Shown: piece by piece, positions 8,339 through 52,505 of the stretch | Layout of the letters: the number at the start of each line of letters is the position of its first letter | Numbering within the stretch: position 1 is the stretch's first letter | NCBI RefSeq assembly: GCF_000317895.1 | Contig: NC_019567.1 | Coordinates: 2,418,001-2,482,000, forward strand | Reading direction: 5' to 3' | Length of the DNA stretch: 64,000 nt | From: Bdellovibrio bacteriovorus str. Tiberius | GTDB lineage: Bacteria > Bdellovibrionota > Bdellovibrionia > Bdellovibrionales > Bdellovibrionaceae | Notes under the pieces: model-generated | What the model saw: only the letters and a program-made list of their open reading frames with translations | Told to the model about the DNA's origin: nothing | Databases searched by the model: none | Position numbers and translations under genes: made by a program

Positions 8339-8390
8339 ACCTACACTGGCCGACGCACCATCGCCAGAAAAAACAACCAGGCACCTTTTC
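8339..8390 (+). repeat. 52-bp dispersed element, copy 1
   Basis: This stretch matches the reverse complement of 59173-59224 at about 40 of 52 positions by hand count. The last 28 bases are nearly identical (GCCAGA-AAAACAACCAGGCACC). It lies just upstream of the methyltransferase start and directly abuts a palindromic repeat. Confidence 0.7.
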
Positions 8391-8500
8391 AAGGCCCCAG
8401 ATGCAAGGCGGAGGAGGCCCGCGCAGCGAAGGCGTGCTTTCGGCACGTCGTAGCGAGCAGGCCGAACGACAACGCCGTCAGATGGGGTCTTGGCTGCACT
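8385..8500. repeat. Large imperfect palindromic repeat, copy 1
   Basis: Outer arms CAAGGCCCCAGATG and CAGATGGGGTCTTG are complementary with a few mismatches. Inside are the blocks CAAGGCGGAGG, GCGTGC-TTTCG-GCACGTCG (a small hairpin) and CGACAACGCCG. The same blocks occur in the same order at 50455-50577 and, more diverged, at 11886-11966. It fills the gap between the barrel gene ending at 8500 and the methyltransferase gene. Confidence 0.75.
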
Positions 8501-9564
8501 CAGAAACGCCAGTAGGCATCGAATAAAAGGTAGTAGCCGTCTTCCGGGGCGTATTTTAGCGAGGTGATGTCGGTCGAGTTCAGCGAGAAGCTTAGATGGA
8601 ACTGGTCCCAGATCTTAACATAGCTGAGATAACCCCCGACAGCTTTGGATTCGAAGTTGTACGACGGCCCCAGCAAGACGCGATCCCAGTCGTCGAGAAT
8701 AAATTCATAGCCCGTCTGGAAAGAGCTTGTTCCCAGGGACTTGATCGCGGTGGCATTGGCGGCGTCTTCAAAGCTGAACAGGGCCACGGACAAAAGCGTG
8801 TGCGAAACCACACTTTCGGAAGAAATCGAATCCCAATAGATATTCAAGTTCAAGGTCGAACGGTTTTCATTCGGAATGCGCGCAAAGTTCAAACCGCCGG
8901 CAAAGTTGTTGGAAGCGGACTGATACAAGCGCGTTTTGATCGTGGCATTGTAGGCACCCAGAATGTCCGCCGGGATGATGGAAGAAACCGTCAGCCACTC
9001 TTTCCAGCCATAGTTCACCTGACCAAACCACGTGATCAGGAATTCATCCTCCCACAGGGTTTCGGCCGTCTCACCCACCGCAATACCTTGGGTGAACAAA
9101 GGCTTGTATTTGGACGAGGTTTCTTTCGTGCCCTTTTTGATAATCAGGTCGGTAGTGCCTTTATAACGATTGTTTTCAGAGCTTAAATCCAAATGCATGA
9201 CCTGATCGCCAATCTGGATAAAGTTCATGCGGGACTGGCGCTGAAGCTCGCAAATCAGCTCATAGGTGCCGTCTTGCTTGTTTTCGATACCGGTCACTTC
9301 AACAAAGCCCACGATGCCCACAGAAGGCGTCTGGGATTCAATGGCCACCATTTCACCGATATACCAGTCACTGGCGGTGGTAACCACACGCAGGGTCTTA
9401 TTATCTATGAAGGAATCAATGCGCCCGCGGGCTTCGGGCTGGGGCTTTGGCATTTCCATCGCGGGTTCGCGCAGAATAATAGGAACCTCTTCATCCATCG
9501 AGGATGAAGCCTGTGCCATAAAGGACACAAAACAGATTGTCAGCACCAGAATAAGCCGCAGCAT
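8500..9564 (-). CDS. Secreted outer-membrane barrel-like protein (354 aa)
   Basis: Residues 1-20 are a signal peptide (MLRLILVLTICFVSFMAQAS). Residues 30-140 look like a compact soluble beta domain (GRIDSFIDNKTLRVVT, GEMVAIES, V-G-I-V-G-F-V-E-V). From about residue 160 to the end, alternating strands and a final AYWRF fit an outer-membrane barrel with a terminal phenylalanine. No named family is recognised. It is the last gene of a three-gene minus-strand operon: barrel protein, EF-hand lipoprotein, this protein, with only 15 bases to the gene before it. Its stop touches a palindromic repeat. Confidence 0.8.
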   Translation of the reverse strand: MLRLILVLTICFVSFMAQASSSMDEEVPIILREPAMEMPKPQPEARGRIDSFIDNKTLRVVTTASDWYIGEMVAIESQTPSVGIVGFVEVTGIENKQDGTYELICELQRQSRMNFIQIGDQVMHLDLSSENNRYKGTTDLIIKKGTKETSSKYKPLFTQGIAVGETAETLWEDEFLITWFGQVNYGWKEWLTVSSIIPADILGAYNATIKTRLYQSASNNFAGGLNFARIPNENRSTLNLNIYWDSISSESVVSHTLLSVALFSFEDAANATAIKSLGTSSFQTGYEFILDDWDRVLLGPSYNFESKAVGGYLSYVKIWDQFHLSFSLNSTDITSLKYAPEDGYYLLFDAYWRF

Positions 9565-9579: not shown

Positions 9580-11883
9580 CTAGTTTTCCACCTTGTTCAA
9601 TTGGTCCTTGAGGGTGCCGAAAAGACGGGCGATTTCCATGCGCTGGGCATCGTCGATGCCCCACATCTTTTTAAACTGGAAGCCAGCAATGCCGCCCGCC
9701 CCCGGAATTTCGCCATAGAACACCAAATGCGCAAAACCTTCCTTGATCAGGAACTCGTAGGTGCCCGGATTCACCTTTTTAAAGAAGGACATAAATCTTG
9801 GCGCCGAGGCATAAACTTCGTCGACGGACAGGCCCTGGTTGTTGTCAGTGTCGTAAATCACCATGATGGTTTCAATGTAGTGTAAAATCGTGACCATCGT
9901 GCGCACATTGGCGGTTTCAATAAGGCCCGGACGCTGAGTTGGCGTCACTGAAGCTGCCAGGACATAGTCAAAGAACTGCTTCCATTGCGCGGCATTCAAT
10001 CCGCGCACATAGTTCACCATGCCCGGCATGTTCGCGAAATACACGCCAATGTGTTTGCGCAATTGTTCACGGAAGCAGTCTTCTTTGTAGTAGTTAAATC
10101 CAAAGACGTCTTTTTCCTCAATCGCGCACTGAGCCAGCTTCATATGATCAGACACGGCATTGGACGTTCCAAGACCGGCCGAGAACAGCGTCGTCACAAA
10201 TTCAAAGGTCTCTTTCTGGTCCATGCCGTCGTTGCCGTTACCACTGAAGGTGAAGAAATTCGCCTCCAGGAAGCTGCGAGAACCGGAATTCGCTGAGCGC
10301 GGGTCAAAGGCCTTCAGATCCAAACCCAGTTCCTGGAAGTCTTCATACCAGGACACCAGACCTTTTTCGCTCATCTGGGACTGGCTAAGGCGGCCGCCGA
10401 CATTATCGGCATAACCCAGCATCAGCATACGCGACAAAACACGCATCAAGTTGAACTTGGTCAAAGCGGCCCAGCTTTGTTTTGTCTGATTGCCCGTGGC
10501 AGAAATGATCAAACGGCCGTCACCATTGAAATTCACCATGGTCGGATTCTTGATCAGGTCGCCAATGTCAGCCCACGCGTTTTCCAAAGCCTTTTGTTCA
10601 AAGGCGTCGTCGGTCAGACCTTTTTCAATCACATAGGATTTATTGAACTTGTTGTAGTATTCAATCAACTGCTTTTGCGTGACTCCACCACCCAGCTCTG
10701 CCATCGGAATATTGTCGATAAAGCTCTGATGCAGGCGGAAGATATTCAGTTCACGCTGGATGCTCATAATGTGCTTTTTCTCAAGCCCCAGCAAGCTGCG
10801 GGAATCCGCCACGCGCGCCGGATCCAGAATCTTCATCAGCACGGCTTTATAGGTCTTAATCAAAGACTTCGGCTGAATCATGTCGGTCGCGGAAGGCAGT
10901 ATCTGATTGATCAGATTGTCGATGTCTTCCACGGGAATGCGGCCCGAGGCCTTCATCTGGTGAGAGTTCAACAACAATCCCAGCCCTTGCGTCAGGAACT
11001 GGCTGGTCTGACGGACTTTGGCGGCATTCGTGAATTCAAAATCACCAATGACATAATGATATTTCAAAGCCAGCTCGTACAGATCCAATAAAGTATCAAG
11101 ACTTTCACTCCACTGATAAAGGCCGGCGAAATGCGCACGACGACCCATCAATACGACTTTAACGGATTCCACCATCGGAACCCACTGACTGTATTTCTGG
11201 TAAGGCGCAAAGGGTTCTTCACCGCGAATGAATTCGGCAAAGCCAGACAAGGCTTTTTTGGCATCTTCGAAGCTGTAATCAGACTTGGCGATCTGGGTTT
11301 TTTCCAGCAGACGCTGCAAAGATCTGCGCAACTGATCCACGGCCGCGGAAATCTGTTCCCACTCGGTTTTGTCAGACTGATTTTGATTCAACAGCAATTT
11401 TACGTGCGGCGACAGCTCGATGGATTCATCACGCAAAAGCCCCAGGATTTCAACCAGACGCACGATCTCGTCTTTGGTGATATGACTGGTGGATCCACCC
11501 AAAAGCGCACGTTTGATTTTCATCAGCTCGGCCGCAAATTCCGGGGTCACGTTGTTCTTTTTCAGGAAGTACTTGCCAAAGAACCGGCGCATTTCCTCGA
11601 CGGTATAAGCGTTTTCCAAAGAGCCAAAAGTTTTTTTATTAAAGTAATTCAAAGCATCCGTCATACAGTCAAAGCCCTGACGAATTTCTGATTCCTTGGC
11701 TTCACCGACCGAGAATTTTTCCAAATGCTGTGGAATCACCTGAAGACAGGCAAAACGAGTATCCGAGAATTCAATCACTTCCGGCTCAGCCTTCTTCCCA
11801 TTCAAGAAGTCACTACAGCCCACAGAAGACAGACCAAAAGAAGCAACCAAAACAAAACCAACCACACGCCAAGAAATGGCCAT
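9580..11883 (-). CDS. Large lipoprotein with EF-hand-like calcium loops (767 aa)
   Basis: From ATG 11883 the protein has a lipoprotein signal (MAISWRVVGFVLVASFGLSS, then VGC, Cys 23). The longer frame to 11988 reads through the palindromic repeat and is rejected. The mature part is mostly helical. Two calcium-binding-like loops are visible: DTDNNQGLSVDE at about residues 678-689, a good EF-hand loop, and SGNGNDGMDQKE around residue 560, a weaker match. The last 110 residues resemble those of the partial gene at 63486-64000 in spacing and motif order, so the two are probable paralogues. As the middle gene of an operon with two outer-membrane proteins it probably works with them at the cell surface or in the periplasm. 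Function unknown. Confidence 0.82.
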   Translation of the reverse strand: MAISWRVVGFVLVASFGLSSVGCSDFLNGKKAEPEVIEFSDTRFACLQVIPQHLEKFSVGEAKESEIRQGFDCMTDALNYFNKKTFGSLENAYTVEEMRRFFGKYFLKKNNVTPEFAAELMKIKRALLGGSTSHITKDEIVRLVEILGLLRDESIELSPHVKLLLNQNQSDKTEWEQISAAVDQLRRSLQRLLEKTQIAKSDYSFEDAKKALSGFAEFIRGEEPFAPYQKYSQWVPMVESVKVVLMGRRAHFAGLYQWSESLDTLLDLYELALKYHYVIGDFEFTNAAKVRQTSQFLTQGLGLLLNSHQMKASGRIPVEDIDNLINQILPSATDMIQPKSLIKTYKAVLMKILDPARVADSRSLLGLEKKHIMSIQRELNIFRLHQSFIDNIPMAELGGGVTQKQLIEYYNKFNKSYVIEKGLTDDAFEQKALENAWADIGDLIKNPTMVNFNGDGRLIISATGNQTKQSWAALTKFNLMRVLSRMLMLGYADNVGGRLSQSQMSEKGLVSWYEDFQELGLDLKAFDPRSANSGSRSFLEANFFTFSGNGNDGMDQKETFEFVTTLFSAGLGTSNAVSDHMKLAQCAIEEKDVFGFNYYKEDCFREQLRKHIGVYFANMPGMVNYVRGLNAAQWKQFFDYVLAASVTPTQRPGLIETANVRTMVTILHYIETIMVIYDTDNNQGLSVDEVYASAPRFMSFFKKVNPGTYEFLIKEGFAHLVFYGEIPGAGGIAGFQFKKMWGIDDAQRMEIARLFGTLKDQLNKVEN

Positions 11884-11885
11884 AA

Positions 11886-11966
11886 AGGCCTCAAATCCAA
11901 GGCGCAAGGAGAAAGCCGTACTCTTGTACGGCGCCGACGCAGCAACGCCGGAGTTGAGGTTTTTAG
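11886..11966. repeat. Large imperfect palindromic repeat, copy 2 (diverged)
   Basis: Outer arms GGCCTCAAATCCAAGGCG and CGCCGGAGTTGAGG pair with a few mismatches, and an inner perfect hairpin GCCGTAC-TCTT-GTACGGC sits at 11915-11932. The order of blocks (CAAGGCG...hairpin...GACG...CAACGCCG) matches the copies at 8385 and 50455. It lies between two genes of the same operon, so it would be transcribed. Confidence 0.65.
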
Positions 11967-11977
11967 GACCGTTTCGC

Positions 11978-13345
11978 TTAGAAGACATAAGCGGCTCCTA
12001 ACATCAGGCGGTCGTTGTTTTCGAATTGGGCGATATCGTTTTGATTTTCCTGGCTTGCGGGTTCCGCCTTCACCATCTGCATTTCGCCAATGAAGGACCA
12101 CAGGCCTGACAGGCGGAATCTGGCGCTGACACGGATCAGATCAAACTTGTTTTTCTCGGAATGAGTATAGCTGACCTTGGTGATCAGCTTCTTCGTGCGT
12201 TTGAAGCTGAAGTTCCCCATCAACGACAACTGCGTTGCCTGCTGATACGGGTAACGGGTCATCAATGGCGCGCGGTTTTCATTGGCAAGTTCACCCTCTT
12301 CAGTGACTTTGCCGCCATAGATTTCCAGGTGCTGCAAGGCCACGCCGAAATAAGAGTTCGTCCACTCGACAAACGGGCTGACCAAAACGGCGTCTTCAAA
12401 TGTCGGATGGGTCCACTTTTCTTCAAAAATCTCGTCTTTACTTGGCTTGTCGTACAGGCCGCTGATACCCACGCGCAAACGGTCGGACTTATAACTGATA
12501 TCGCCACCCACCAACGAGTGATAGAAGACCTGAGGCTGTAAATTCACCGCACCTTTAAGTTCGGCGACATTCAGATTTCCTTCATAACCGATGGCCAATT
12601 GATTGGATGGTTTATAGGTATAAGCCAGCTGTCCGCGCAGCCCTTGCGGGTCGCCAAAGGCCAGCTTCAGACCAAAGGAATTTTGCAAGACCACTTCAGT
12701 CTCTGACGGTTTTTCGAAAGTATAATCAATGGCGGTGGCTTCTTCCCAGATACGGATGCTTTCTGGCGGACGGCGGAACCATGGGTTCCCCTTCACGAAG
12801 CTGCCATTTTCAATATCAAAGCTAGGCCCCTGATCCGGAATATAAATGGGTGAAGCAAACAACAACAGTGTGTAATACGGCTTATCAACCTGCCAGAATA
12901 TTCCGGTCAGACCCTGGCTTTCGGCGTTCAATGGATTCCACTTGAATAAAGGTTCCCACACACCCAGATCCCAGCGGGCATCCAGCTCATTCCACAGCAT
13001 TTTTTTGCGACCCATATAGAAATTCTCAGTTTCACTGAGTCGCGTTTCCAGATAGAACTCGGAAATATTCAGGTAATTCAACAACGGAGCACCGATTGCC
13101 ACCCCACCAGAAACGTCCATTTTAAATGGCGCTTCGCTAAAGGTGTCGCTTTTTAACTGGGCTCCAACAAACTGATAATTGGTCTTTTCCGCGGCCTCAA
13201 AGGTCGGGCTGATGAAAGAATCCGAGAATAAACGCATCTCGGTCTGCACCTGCGCAGACGCAAAAAACGGGGTCAAAACCAGCAGCATGAACCCGATTAA
13301 AGATGTGTTAAGGGTCCCCAAAACGGGGACTTGTTTGAAAGCCAT
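11978..13345 (-). CDS. Outer-membrane porin-like protein (455 aa)
   Basis: The start at ATG 13345 opens a signal peptide (MAFKQVPVLGTLNTSLIGFM, cleaved after FFASAQ) and has GGGAGG three bases upstream; an in-frame start at 13381 lacks this. The mature protein is rich in alternating aromatic/polar strands and ends in AAYVF, a classic barrel C-terminus. The segment near residues 110-170 (YMGRKKMLWNELDARWDLG, NPLNAESQG) recalls long-chain or alginate-type porins, but I cannot assign a family. It is the first gene of a three-gene operon. A conserved-looking RRPPESIRIWEEA segment lies near residue 200. Confidence 0.8.
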   Translation of the reverse strand: MAFKQVPVLGTLNTSLIGFMLLVLTPFFASAQVQTEMRLFSDSFISPTFEAAEKTNYQFVGAQLKSDTFSEAPFKMDVSGGVAIGAPLLNYLNISEFYLETRLSETENFYMGRKKMLWNELDARWDLGVWEPLFKWNPLNAESQGLTGIFWQVDKPYYTLLLFASPIYIPDQGPSFDIENGSFVKGNPWFRRPPESIRIWEEATAIDYTFEKPSETEVVLQNSFGLKLAFGDPQGLRGQLAYTYKPSNQLAIGYEGNLNVAELKGAVNLQPQVFYHSLVGGDISYKSDRLRVGISGLYDKPSKDEIFEEKWTHPTFEDAVLVSPFVEWTNSYFGVALQHLEIYGGKVTEEGELANENRAPLMTRYPYQQATQLSLMGNFSFKRTKKLITKVSYTHSEKNKFDLIRVSARFRLSGLWSFIGEMQMVKAEPASQENQNDIAQFENNDRLMLGAAYVF

Positions 13346-13465
13346 GGGCCTCCCATCAATGAGCTTTACTTCAATGCCCATGCCCGGCCAGAACGCCTAT
13401 AGGCGAATACCCTTTCCACCTTTTAAACAAGTGACCTTTTTCGGCGCCTTTGATAGATTAGTCCC

Positions 13466-50134: not shown

Positions 50135-50454
50135 CGTGCGACTCCTTGCTTACGTTCATGTTTACAAGTCGCAACTAAAATCTCCATACTTTTACAACAT
50201 TCGCGTCATAATGATTGAGCGTCTTATCAACGCTTTAGACACTTTAAAGAACATTTTTTGAATGTTCCTTTTTCTGTAAAATATTTGATCATTTCCCTCA
50301 GAGAAAAGCTTTAATCCCAATGCATCTTTCAACTGCGAAACCCACTGACAGAGACCTCAGTTGTTTCGGGATTCTTTAAAGAGAAAAGTCGACTGAAAAC
50401 AATTGCCGGACTGAGGGCCTTAAGACTCTGCCCTTCAAAAATACATCGAAGGAA
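50135..50454. other. 320-bp upstream region of the PKD/Hint operon
   Basis: AT-rich sequence that should contain the minus-strand promoter of the lipoprotein gene at 50134. An AAGGAG ribosome site lies just before its start. I could not identify a convincing promoter or operator. No open frame stands out. A large palindromic repeat begins at 50455. Confidence 0.35.
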
Positions 50455-50577
50455 GATTGGTCAAAAGTGTCCAGGCGCAAGGCGGAGGGGTCCCTTTGAA
50501 GCGCAGGCGTGCTCCAAGCACGTCGGAGCGAAAAAGGTCCCCCGACAACGCAGTCGAATGGGCGCTTTTCACCAATC
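50455..50577. repeat. Large imperfect palindromic repeat, copy 3 (longest)
   Basis: The ends GATTGGTCAAAAGTG and CGCTTTTCACCAATC pair almost fully. Inside, GGGGTCCCTTT pairs with AAAGGTCCCC, and the centre is CGTGCT-CCA-AGCACG. Conserved blocks CAAGGCGGAGG, GCAGGCGTGC, GCACGTCG and CGACAACGC match the copy at 8385-8500. It abuts the stop codon of the receiver-PATAN gene. Confidence 0.8.
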
Positions 50578-52505
50578 TATTTTTTCTTGAAGAAGCCTGA
50601 AACGACTTGCTTGAGGTCGACGTTGAACACGTCTTGTTTTTTATTGGCAGCCGCCAACACAGAGATTTCCCGACGAGCAGGAATGAAGGAAGGATCCAGT
50701 GCCACGCTCTTCTCGAAGGATTTGCGCGCGGCCACCATATCGCCTTTGGTTTTATTGAACAGACCAATCACAAACGGGAAAAGCGTGTCATAACGTTCAT
50801 CCGGTGGAACCTGCATCAGCTCCAGTTCCACTTCTTTCAGAACGAAGTTCTTTTTGGCCACTTCGACCGAACCCAGTTTTGCCCAAGAGCTGTACAAGTG
50901 CAGCTGCTGGGTTTGAGGGTTCAGCTTACTCACCTCGGCAAGCAGCTCCAGCGCTTTCGCGAACTGGGTGTATTGCAGGGCTTTTTTAACTTCTTCCATC
51001 AAGGAATTGGCGCGAAGTTTTGCTTCAGCTTCATTTCTTTGAGTTGCCTGACGGATTTGATCGATTTTATTGGTGTCTTTGGAGGCGTTCATGGCGTCTT
51101 CCGCCAATGTGCGCACCTTTTGCCATTGGGTGTAGACTTCCGAAGCTGTATCGCCCGGCTCATCCCCCAGCAAAGTCATAAAGTCAGACAGCATGGATTC
51201 AGCAGAACCGCCCCCGGTCCCCGTTTCCATGTATGCCACGATTTCGTATGAGTTCTTGTTTTCAAGTTCAGCAGCGATCTTCTTGATGACTTTCAACTGC
51301 TCAGCCGGGCTTGCAAAGGCCGCACGCTGGGCAAAGACAATCAATCCTTTGGTTAAAAGGAAGTGGATGGCCTTATAGACCGCCACTTCATTATAACCTT
51401 TGATGTCCAGAAGCTGCGTCAGAGTGATCTGATTGTTCAGCTTCACCGGCAGGCCTTCCAGGGATTTCACCAAAGACATGCTCAGGGCCGGATGATCATC
51501 ACGGAAAGTCGGACTTTTCACGATGATGTTACCGGACCACATCACATACAGGGACTTCAGCCAGTTAATAGAGATCTTGGAAGCGATCCAGTCATGCAGA
51601 TAGTACGACAGACTGTCAGCATCGATACTTGGATTGCTCATCTCAACTTCCGCGGATGCAAAATTCACGCGGATTTTCTGATCAACAATCGTGCGCACCA
51701 GACGGATGTTCATTTGCTCCATCAGGATCAGATCAAAGGCATGGGGGCTTAGCTGGTTGTTCTGAATCAGATAGTCACCGATACGGCGGTTATTTTTAAC
51801 ACGCAGAGCCTCCTGCACGTCTTGCGGGGTCGCATAACCACTCTGGATCAGCATCTCCCCCAGGAAGGTGGTTTTGTCATCCACGTCCACACCCACGATA
51901 TTCCCGTTACAGAACGAGATACCGGACACGGAACCATCGGCATTATAGATATTCAGATAACCACCGCTCTTGGTTTCCACCAGCAGAGAATACAGGAATG
52001 GCAAGTCAAAGCCGCTCACCTCTTCAATGGACTCAATCACCTTTCTTTTCTGGCGGTTGGTCACTGTTGGGTTGGCGAACATCTGATAAAGCAGCTTACG
52101 CGCGCTGGATTCTTCGCGGCGTGGAGCCTCTTCTTTTTTCACGATTTTCAGCACCTGCTCCATATCGAATGGCTTTTTCATGAAAGCCACGGCCTGGGTG
52201 CTTTGAGTCGCTTCCTGAATGAAGGATTTGTCGGTATAAATACCGCTCATCAGAACGACTTTGAATTTGGCATTGGGATAATTGGCGCGGGCTTGTTTGA
52301 TGAAATCAAGGCCCGTCATCTGTGGCAGCAAGCAGTCACAGAACAGGAATTCGATATTGGAATTGCTGGCGAAAATGCTATTGGCCTCGTCCGGACGGGA
52401 CGCGACAAAAACGGCGTGGCCAGCGCGGCTTAAAATTTCTTTTAAGGCCGATCTGACCGACTCGTCGTCTTCCAATATCAAGATCTTAGATTTGCCTGAT
52501 TCCAC
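50577..52505 (-). CDS. Response regulator: receiver, PATAN (DUF4388) and TPR domains
   Basis: Residues 1-125 form a receiver domain: ILILEDDESVRSALKEIL (acidic pocket), phosphorylatable Asp 57 in FLFCDCLLP, Ser in LMSG and Lys in AFMKKPFD near 110. A PATAN/DUF4388-like region covers about 165-400: GGYLNIYNADGSVSGISFCN near 180, GNIVGVDVDDKTTFLGEML, and LITKGLIVF-like segment near 385. The C-terminal part (480-642) contains TPR-like helices (LEVKKALQYTQFAKALELLA-like repeat and SFEKSVALDPSFIPA). Such proteins act as signalling scaffolds; the output is not DNA binding. GTG 52505 is the start, with AAGGAA upstream. It is followed by a palindromic repeat. Confidence 0.85.
   Translation of the reverse strand: MESGKSKILILEDDESVRSALKEILSRAGHAVFVASRPDEANSIFASNSNIEFLFCDCLLPQMTGLDFIKQARANYPNAKFKVVLMSGIYTDKSFIQEATQSTQAVAFMKKPFDMEQVLKIVKKEEAPRREESSARKLLYQMFANPTVTNRQKRKVIESIEEVSGFDLPFLYSLLVETKSGGYLNIYNADGSVSGISFCNGNIVGVDVDDKTTFLGEMLIQSGYATPQDVQEALRVKNNRRIGDYLIQNNQLSPHAFDLILMEQMNIRLVRTIVDQKIRVNFASAEVEMSNPSIDADSLSYYLHDWIASKISINWLKSLYVMWSGNIIVKSPTFRDDHPALSMSLVKSLEGLPVKLNNQITLTQLLDIKGYNEVAVYKAIHFLLTKGLIVFAQRAAFASPAEQLKVIKKIAAELENKNSYEIVAYMETGTGGGSAESMLSDFMTLLGDEPGDTASEVYTQWQKVRTLAEDAMNASKDTNKIDQIRQATQRNEAEAKLRANSLMEEVKKALQYTQFAKALELLAEVSKLNPQTQQLHLYSSWAKLGSVEVAKKNFVLKEVELELMQVPPDERYDTLFPFVIGLFNKTKGDMVAARKSFEKSVALDPSFIPARREISVLAAANKKQDVFNVDLKQVVSGFFKKK

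Follow-up and report, generated by a model that had tools for sequence, protein, structure and literature searches.

Results

Three copies of a palindromic element adjoin stop codons

The stretch of DNA analysed here (the window, 64,000 nucleotides) contains three copies of a palindromic element, all located between tandem minus-strand genes and directly behind the stop codon of the first gene. The focal copy, of the long class (about 126 nt), occupies positions 50453–50578 and folds best on the plus strand. It scores 82.2 bits with covariance model R2 (built from 61 copies from other phyla and three from the host genome) and 135.7 bits with model R1 (built from 20 copies), and its RNA fold has a z-score of −7.29. 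By sequence and fold, the left outer arm GATTGGT (50455–50461) pairs with the right outer arm ACCAATC (50571–50577). A conserved C.C mismatch (50462/50570) lies directly inside the arms, followed by an A-tract/T-tract stem in which AAAAGTGTCCA (50463–50473) pairs with TGGGCGCTTTT (50559–50569), again by sequence and fold. Further inward are two conserved core segments: CAAGGCG (50478–50484), which is present in alignments A1, A2 and A3, its conservation in A3 owing partly to ascertainment, and CAACGC (50546–50551), recognized from the sequence and from conservation in A1. GCG of the former pairs with CGC of the latter, and the flanking As are unpaired on both strands. The inner hairpin GGCGTGCTCCAAGCACGTC (50506–50524; helix 4), evident in sequence and fold, includes a conserved G.U pair. 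The last arm base overlaps the stop codon TAG (50577–50579, minus strand) of the upstream gene (50577–52505).

The other two copies also match R2 and are written on the plus strand. The second (8390–8492; its covariance-model match spans 8391–8491) is of the long class, has arms CAAGGCCCCA/TGGGGTCTTG without the A/T tract, and lies 7 nt from the stop codon TGA of the minus-strand gene 8500–9564. The third (11873–11974), of the short class with inner hairpin GCCGTACTCTTGTACGGC, adjoins the stop codon TAA (11978–11980) of the minus-strand gene 11978–13381. The R2 scores of the three copies are 82, 66 and 54 bits, and nothing else in the 64 kb matched. The plus strand of each folds better than all 200 dinucleotide shuffles (z −7.3, −3.8 and −4.6). 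An earlier note on this DNA had placed copies at 8385–8500, 11886–11966 and 50455–50577; they are present as placed and on the same strand, with the correction that the 11886 copy, a true family member, belongs to the shorter class. The note's location at gene borders holds in a stronger form: the copies lie immediately 3′ of a stop codon and in fixed orientation to the upstream gene.

Other repeats were seen at these sites. In two sister genomes (L104 and L120), the stop codon that the focal copy adjoins here (window 50455–50620) carries another palindrome instead, about 200 bp long, and the flank of the focal copy, GGGCAGAGTCTTAAGGCCCTCAG in minus-strand reading, resembles a leftover of it. 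Beside the 8390 copy, positions 8370–8390 (minus strand) hold a piece (GAAAAGGTGCCTGGTTGTTTT) of a second, unrelated stop-adjacent repeat, (T)AAAAGGTGCCTGGTTGTTTTTTCTGGC, which also occurs at L042 (1138–1772) and in the flanks of L061, L063, L106 and L128. As 37-bp inverted repeats of 97% complementarity, this second repeat flanks a gene resembling Y1 (HUH) transposases at about 588.5 kb of the host genome; gene and repeats form a TIRYT-like unit in Bdellovibrio.

The element family extends over many bacterial phyla

Further copies in the genome, on which the earlier note had made its reading depend, were readily found. BLAST with the 8385 copy gave 27 matches in the host genome, whose chromosome is complete (3,988,594 bp), and R1 detected about 30 long and 8 short copies there. 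The covariance-model search of Bdellovibrio genomes that the note had proposed was performed on 60 relatives: 20 of the 23 other Bdellovibrio genomes carry 1–57 copies, and some other families of the order also carry copies. With R2, 39 of 114 genomes of the host's own phylum were positive.

A pattern scan of 84,980 species genomes returned at least 120 stretches from many phyla, a set in which the exact core letters are partly forced by the search pattern, many genomes are MAGs and contamination may account for a few of the placements. Among the pattern matches listed are Deltaproteobacteria, Nitrospirae, Acidobacteria, Beta- and Gammaproteobacteria, Chlorobi, Omnitrophota, Elusimicrobia, Bacteroidota, Methylomirabilota, Chloroflexi and Kuenenia, together with Bacillota represented by Lachnospiraceae, Selenomonadales and Peptococcaceae. 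The phyla of the family include Desulfobacterota, Nitrospirota, Methylomirabilota, Pseudomonadota, Bacillota, Acidobacteriota and others. Among 24 pattern-positive genomes searched with R2, a Methylomirabilota genome (G163) and a Selenomonadales genome (G160) each contain at least 147 copies, and the isolate Geothermobacter hydrogeniphilus HR-1 contains 142. Within the purH-purD pair of several Pseudomonas genomes, and of a few other bins, a copy adjoins the 3′ end of purH (L146, L149, L152, L155, L194, L220, L233 and L238).

A/T-tract hairpins are common at gene ends, and the copies could in principle be unrelated ordinary bidirectional terminators that look alike by chance. This is hardly conceivable and is refuted by covariance-model E-values reaching 1e-27 per genome and by an unpaired core common to many phyla. 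Carriage by phages was also rejected, the element being nearly absent from viral contigs, of which one matched. No Rfam family was found at gathering score in the window or at the elements of 15 other loci (weaker matches were meaningless), and a literature search by sequence strings of the core and ends returned no relevant paper. A family that spans many phyla, exceeds 100 copies in some genomes and has neither an Rfam entry nor a mention in the literature searched affects the annotation of intergenic hairpins, terminators and 3′ UTRs.

The fold of one strand is conserved by compensatory changes

On the folding strand, the first half of the element consists of an outer arm, the C.C mismatch, an A4–5 tract with its stem, an internal loop with conserved letters (CAGATGCAAGGCG) and a variable stem. 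The inner hairpin with the conserved G.U pair (GGCGTGC...GCACGTC) forms the middle, and the second half runs through a variable stem, CAACGCNG(T)CAGATG, and a stem with a T tract to the outer arm. In A2, an alignment of 95 Bdellovibrio copies fitted to the covariance model, 97.9% of structure cells pair compared with 81.9% in shuffled controls, two-sided changes number 662 compared with 167, and 30 of 41 pairs show such changes; slid controls reduce pairing to 34–46%. The MAFFT alignments A1 (unfitted) and A3 (cross-phylum) show two-sided changes in 26 of 41 and 21 of 28 pairs, respectively. The excess of pairing and of two-sided changes over the shuffles establishes that the covarying arms are real. 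Within the core, the letters outside the stems are retained, whereas the stems themselves covary.

These data bear out the earlier note's description of a conserved core with compensatory arms, and its expectation that the arms would pair when many copies were aligned: across the 95 copies, 98.9% of helix 1 cells are paired and 15 of its 21 pairs show two-sided changes. The arms do differ between copies and still pair, as the note had it, but they are not random; Bdellovibrio arms follow the consensus GGYYGNT...ANCRRCC and differ mostly by compensated transitions. The origin of the arms in a hairpin at the target site was considered, as the arms vary faster than the interior, and was rejected on account of this consensus and these transitions. 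At L047 and L053, for instance, the interiors are 95% identical and the arms 43%, and the differing arms remain complementary.

The pairing also distinguishes the two strands. G.T pairs outnumber A.C pairs on the folding strand by 339 to 19 in the 95 Bdellovibrio copies and by 163 to 28 across phyla, and therefore the fold of that strand is what is kept. The better-folding strand is antisense to the upstream gene; its RNA fold is the better one in 88% of 101 cross-phylum copies and in all 40 copies examined from Methylomirabilota G163. The selection for a folded RNA suggested earlier is thereby supported for one strand, with covariation far above shuffles. Mutation bias was rejected as the cause of the G.T excess, since deamination on the lagging-strand template would be expected to give the opposite sign. 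A K-turn or another named RNA motif, suggested by the internal loop, did not fit the geometry.

Some copies in the host genome have additional features. At L046, L047, L054 and L066, a further copy of the left arm and a T run lie downstream of the right arm. Two alternative pairings are therefore open to the right arm, one with the left arm and one, terminator-like, with the downstream copy, in the fashion of an attenuator. The copy at L072/L021 (G000:C1 580034–580165) is interrupted by another palindromic insert, CAAAAATAGCAGGATGCTATTTTTGCGCG....

Most copies follow a stop codon in fixed orientation

A long ORF stops at the element start, in the sense of the upstream gene, in 75 of 95 Bdellovibrio copies, almost always at offsets of −5 to +2; at the opposite side, stops occur in 16 of 95 with scattered offsets. 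Across phyla, 29 of 61 stops fall into a single 10-nt bin on the upstream-gene side and the other side is flat. At L045 and L060 the native stop codon is lost and a TGA from the element serves instead.

Orientation relative to replication is the same for 70 of 72 copies (28/30, 20/20 and 22/22) in three Bdellovibrio genomes, although only 197 of 349 genes (56%) in a 10% gene sample are on the leading strand (p 1e-15 against gene strand, an optimistic value because copies in tandem arrays or at shared sites partly depend on one another). The replichores are supported by GC skew in the host genome, and the boundary was assumed in the other two. Both exceptions, in the host genome at 1669083 and 2513163, still obey the stop-codon rule. 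Copies at the ends of leading- and lagging-strand genes number 61 and 2. Orientation arising solely from retention relative to replication was rejected, as it predicts copies at the ends of lagging-strand genes, where hardly any occur.

One reading of this pattern, which we advance tentatively as improbable, is that insertion or survival of a structured element shared across phyla is confined to the 3′ ends of leading-strand genes, where its folding strand points head-on to the replication fork. If true, the element would be a one-way insulator against head-on transcription that has spread as a mobile cassette or, alternatively, would reveal a mode of transposition responsive to both replication direction and stop codons.

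The element may instead be primarily a functional RNA, a one-way intrinsic terminator or other 3′ structured RNA, selectively maintained at gene ends, that acts on antisense (head-on) transcripts, its mobility being incidental. We regard this as a less likely alternative. Two-sided changes and G.U pairs keep the fold on the antisense strand only, T tracts flank the hairpin on both sides in many lineages, and the uniform orientation to replication among genes only slightly biased to the leading strand fits such a role. However, a gene runs in from the antisense side in only 16 of 95 copies, so antisense transcripts would not be anticipated as a rule. Some lineages lack T tracts (the Pseudomonas purH copies), a separate terminator follows some copies (15 of 95 with a strict finder), and a terminator scan flags only a weak hairpin.

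Orientation also bears on a mechanism of the REP/RAYT type, in which a Y1 HUH transposase moves single-stranded DNA on the lagging-strand template and inserts it 3′ of a TAR-containing tetranucleotide. Such a mechanism would account at once for three features, in that copies keep one orientation, are confined to leading-strand genes and are scarce at lagging-strand ends; many REPs lie within 20 bp of an ORF 3′ end and GTAG REPs often supply a TAG stop (PMC3733652), and Y1 transposases are present in most element-bearing genomes. We nevertheless consider it unlikely. Two genomes with 45 and 19 copies (G012 and G016) have no Y1 match; no element lies near the 22 Y1 loci scanned, the lone neighbour in G011 belonging to the end of the lgt gene; the better-folding strand is the wrong one (the leading-strand template); and the terminal repeats equal an IS5 end. 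A Y1/RAYT transposase was rejected as the driver, since copy number does not track Y1 and Y1 is not adjacent.

Full-length copies in a high-copy genome have IS5-type ends

In Methylomirabilota G163 the full unit reads (Y)TAR, CAGGCTGCTGAAAAA, the core, CAGCCTG-GGCGAAAGCGGG-TTTTTCAGCAGCCTG and CTAR. Its ends match those of ISPst12-like IS5 transposons (CAGGCTG.TGAAAAA), as compared with L422 and with plasmid insertion sequences. A search for the G163 end in viral contigs retrieved an insertion sequence with that end at both sides and a 365-aa transposase, which is assigned to the IS5 family by NCBIfam NF033581 (269.6 bits, cut-off 140). Plasmid relatives, some annotated as ISPst12, have such ends together with direct duplications of CTAG, TTAA, TTAA and TTAG; YTAR is the target of IS5 (PMC10359306). 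Two full-length G163 copies are flanked by non-palindromic direct duplications, CTAA/CTAA (L383) and TTAG/TTAG (L475). Other G163 flanks are CTAG pairs, which are palindromic and hence uninformative, or in several cases mismatched, and no duplication is visible at the window copies. Viral contigs L421, L426, L427 and L428 contain other short palindromes with a TAGCAGGCTG(C/T)TGAAAAA end and a different interior, and more MITE types seem to use such ends.

The IS5-type end is clear in 10 of 120 cross-phylum copies and degenerate in Bdellovibrio. A close transposase is absent from 20 of the 21 element-rich genomes searched, distant relatives being present in one, and protein clustering around the 120 cross-phylum loci yielded housekeeping genes only and no transposase. 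With the end clear in so few copies and no close transposase in element-rich genomes, the sequence comparison argues with only moderate strength for an IS5 link.

Empty and altered sites in sister genomes

The comparison of genomes with and without the element that the earlier note had proposed revealed empty sites in sister genomes for L051, L064 and L059. In the 3,782,950-bp sister genome, which we take to be HD100, the L051 and L064 sites are empty and a native terminator lies directly at the stop codon. Sister genomes also contain remnants, different palindromes occupying the same stop codon, and copies whose arms have changed: the arms at the L046 site are GGTGGGT/ACCCACC or GGCTGGT/ACCAGCC, depending on the genome. 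Strains differ in the inner stems at the L044 site, where the gene end is 97–99% identical. Exchange of interiors between copies would explain both the L044 differences and the mismatch between arms and interiors. Two or three elements follow one another in tandem, with spacings of about 10–20 nt, at L283, L289, L293, L295 and L296 (G012) and at L343 (G011); the arm sequence is common to the members of such an array though the interiors can differ in subtype.

Together with the many copies, the IS5-like ends of full-length copies and the YTAR target, the empty sites indicate MITE-like dispersal, in line with the mobile palindrome of REP/MITE type that the note had suggested. Both halves of its interpretation, folded RNA and mobile palindrome, are supported. 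The breadth over phyla, the stop-codon position, the replication bias and the resemblance to insertion sequences go beyond what it had seen.

Discussion

The reading we favour, at somewhat better than even chances, is that a palindromic MITE-like family, to which the window copies belong as old members, arrived by IS5-type insertion on stop codons, after which the fold was kept by selection. An IS5-type DDE transposase, acting in trans, would insert the element at YTAR. Because YTAR overlaps stop codons of the form Y+TAA/TAG, such insertion would explain the position of the copies; YTAR is present at 44 of 64 element-bearing stops compared with 143 of 349 (41%) ordinary stops in Bdellovibrio (p 7e-6). 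Insertion at a C/T-TAA or C/T-TAG stop would restore the stop codon, so that insertions survive. Selection would then maintain the hairpin that is antisense to the host gene, probably as transcribed RNA, its A/U-tract form presumably stopping transcription that enters from downstream better than transcription leaving the gene. A testable rule follows from the position, namely that IS5-type YTAR targets are harmless on TAA/TAG stops.

Several observations stand against IS5-type insertion. Compensatory change in the arms is unlike selection for sequence-specific binding by a DDE transposase, and other lineages, Bdellovibrio included, have changed arms. The fixed orientation and the replication bias are not explained by a strand-symmetric target, as YTAR reads alike on both strands.

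Comparison with known systems

The family is a known sort of element that works like a MITE or a REP. As in MITEs, its copies are short, non-coding and dispersed, present or absent between relatives, and bounded in full-length G163 copies by IS-like terminal inverted repeats. A search for an autonomous partner in the same genome, typical of MITEs, found none, with no close transposase in 20 of 21 element-rich genomes; a partner may have been lost or be more divergent. As in structured RNAs, covariation exceeds that of shuffled controls.

REP/BIME elements of the GTAG and CGTC superfamilies, with their RAYT/TIRYT systems, are like the present family palindromic, high in copy number and often within 20 bp of an ORF 3′ end (PMC3733652); G.T pairs on one strand and a wide distribution over phyla are further likenesses (PMC3733652). 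The present family differs in being three to four times longer, in its core and in a copy number independent of Y1. No GTAG/CGTC tag is present in the A1–A3 consensus (length about 125), and no Y1 transposase is associated.

IS5-family elements of the ISPst12-like type share with the full-length copies the ends CAGGC(C/T)G(G/T/C)TGAAAAA and the YTAR target. In contrast to these insertion sequences, the repeat is without a protein product, and the IS ends lack its inner core.

Chunjie of Geobacter uraniireducens is likewise short, non-coding and present in many copies per genome, with terminal inverted repeats, as in the full-length copies here, and with target duplication, to which the direct duplications at two full-length G163 copies may correspond. 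The Chunjie MITE of Geobacter may belong to the present family, which is marked by a core common to many phyla, covarying stems and a fixed orientation.
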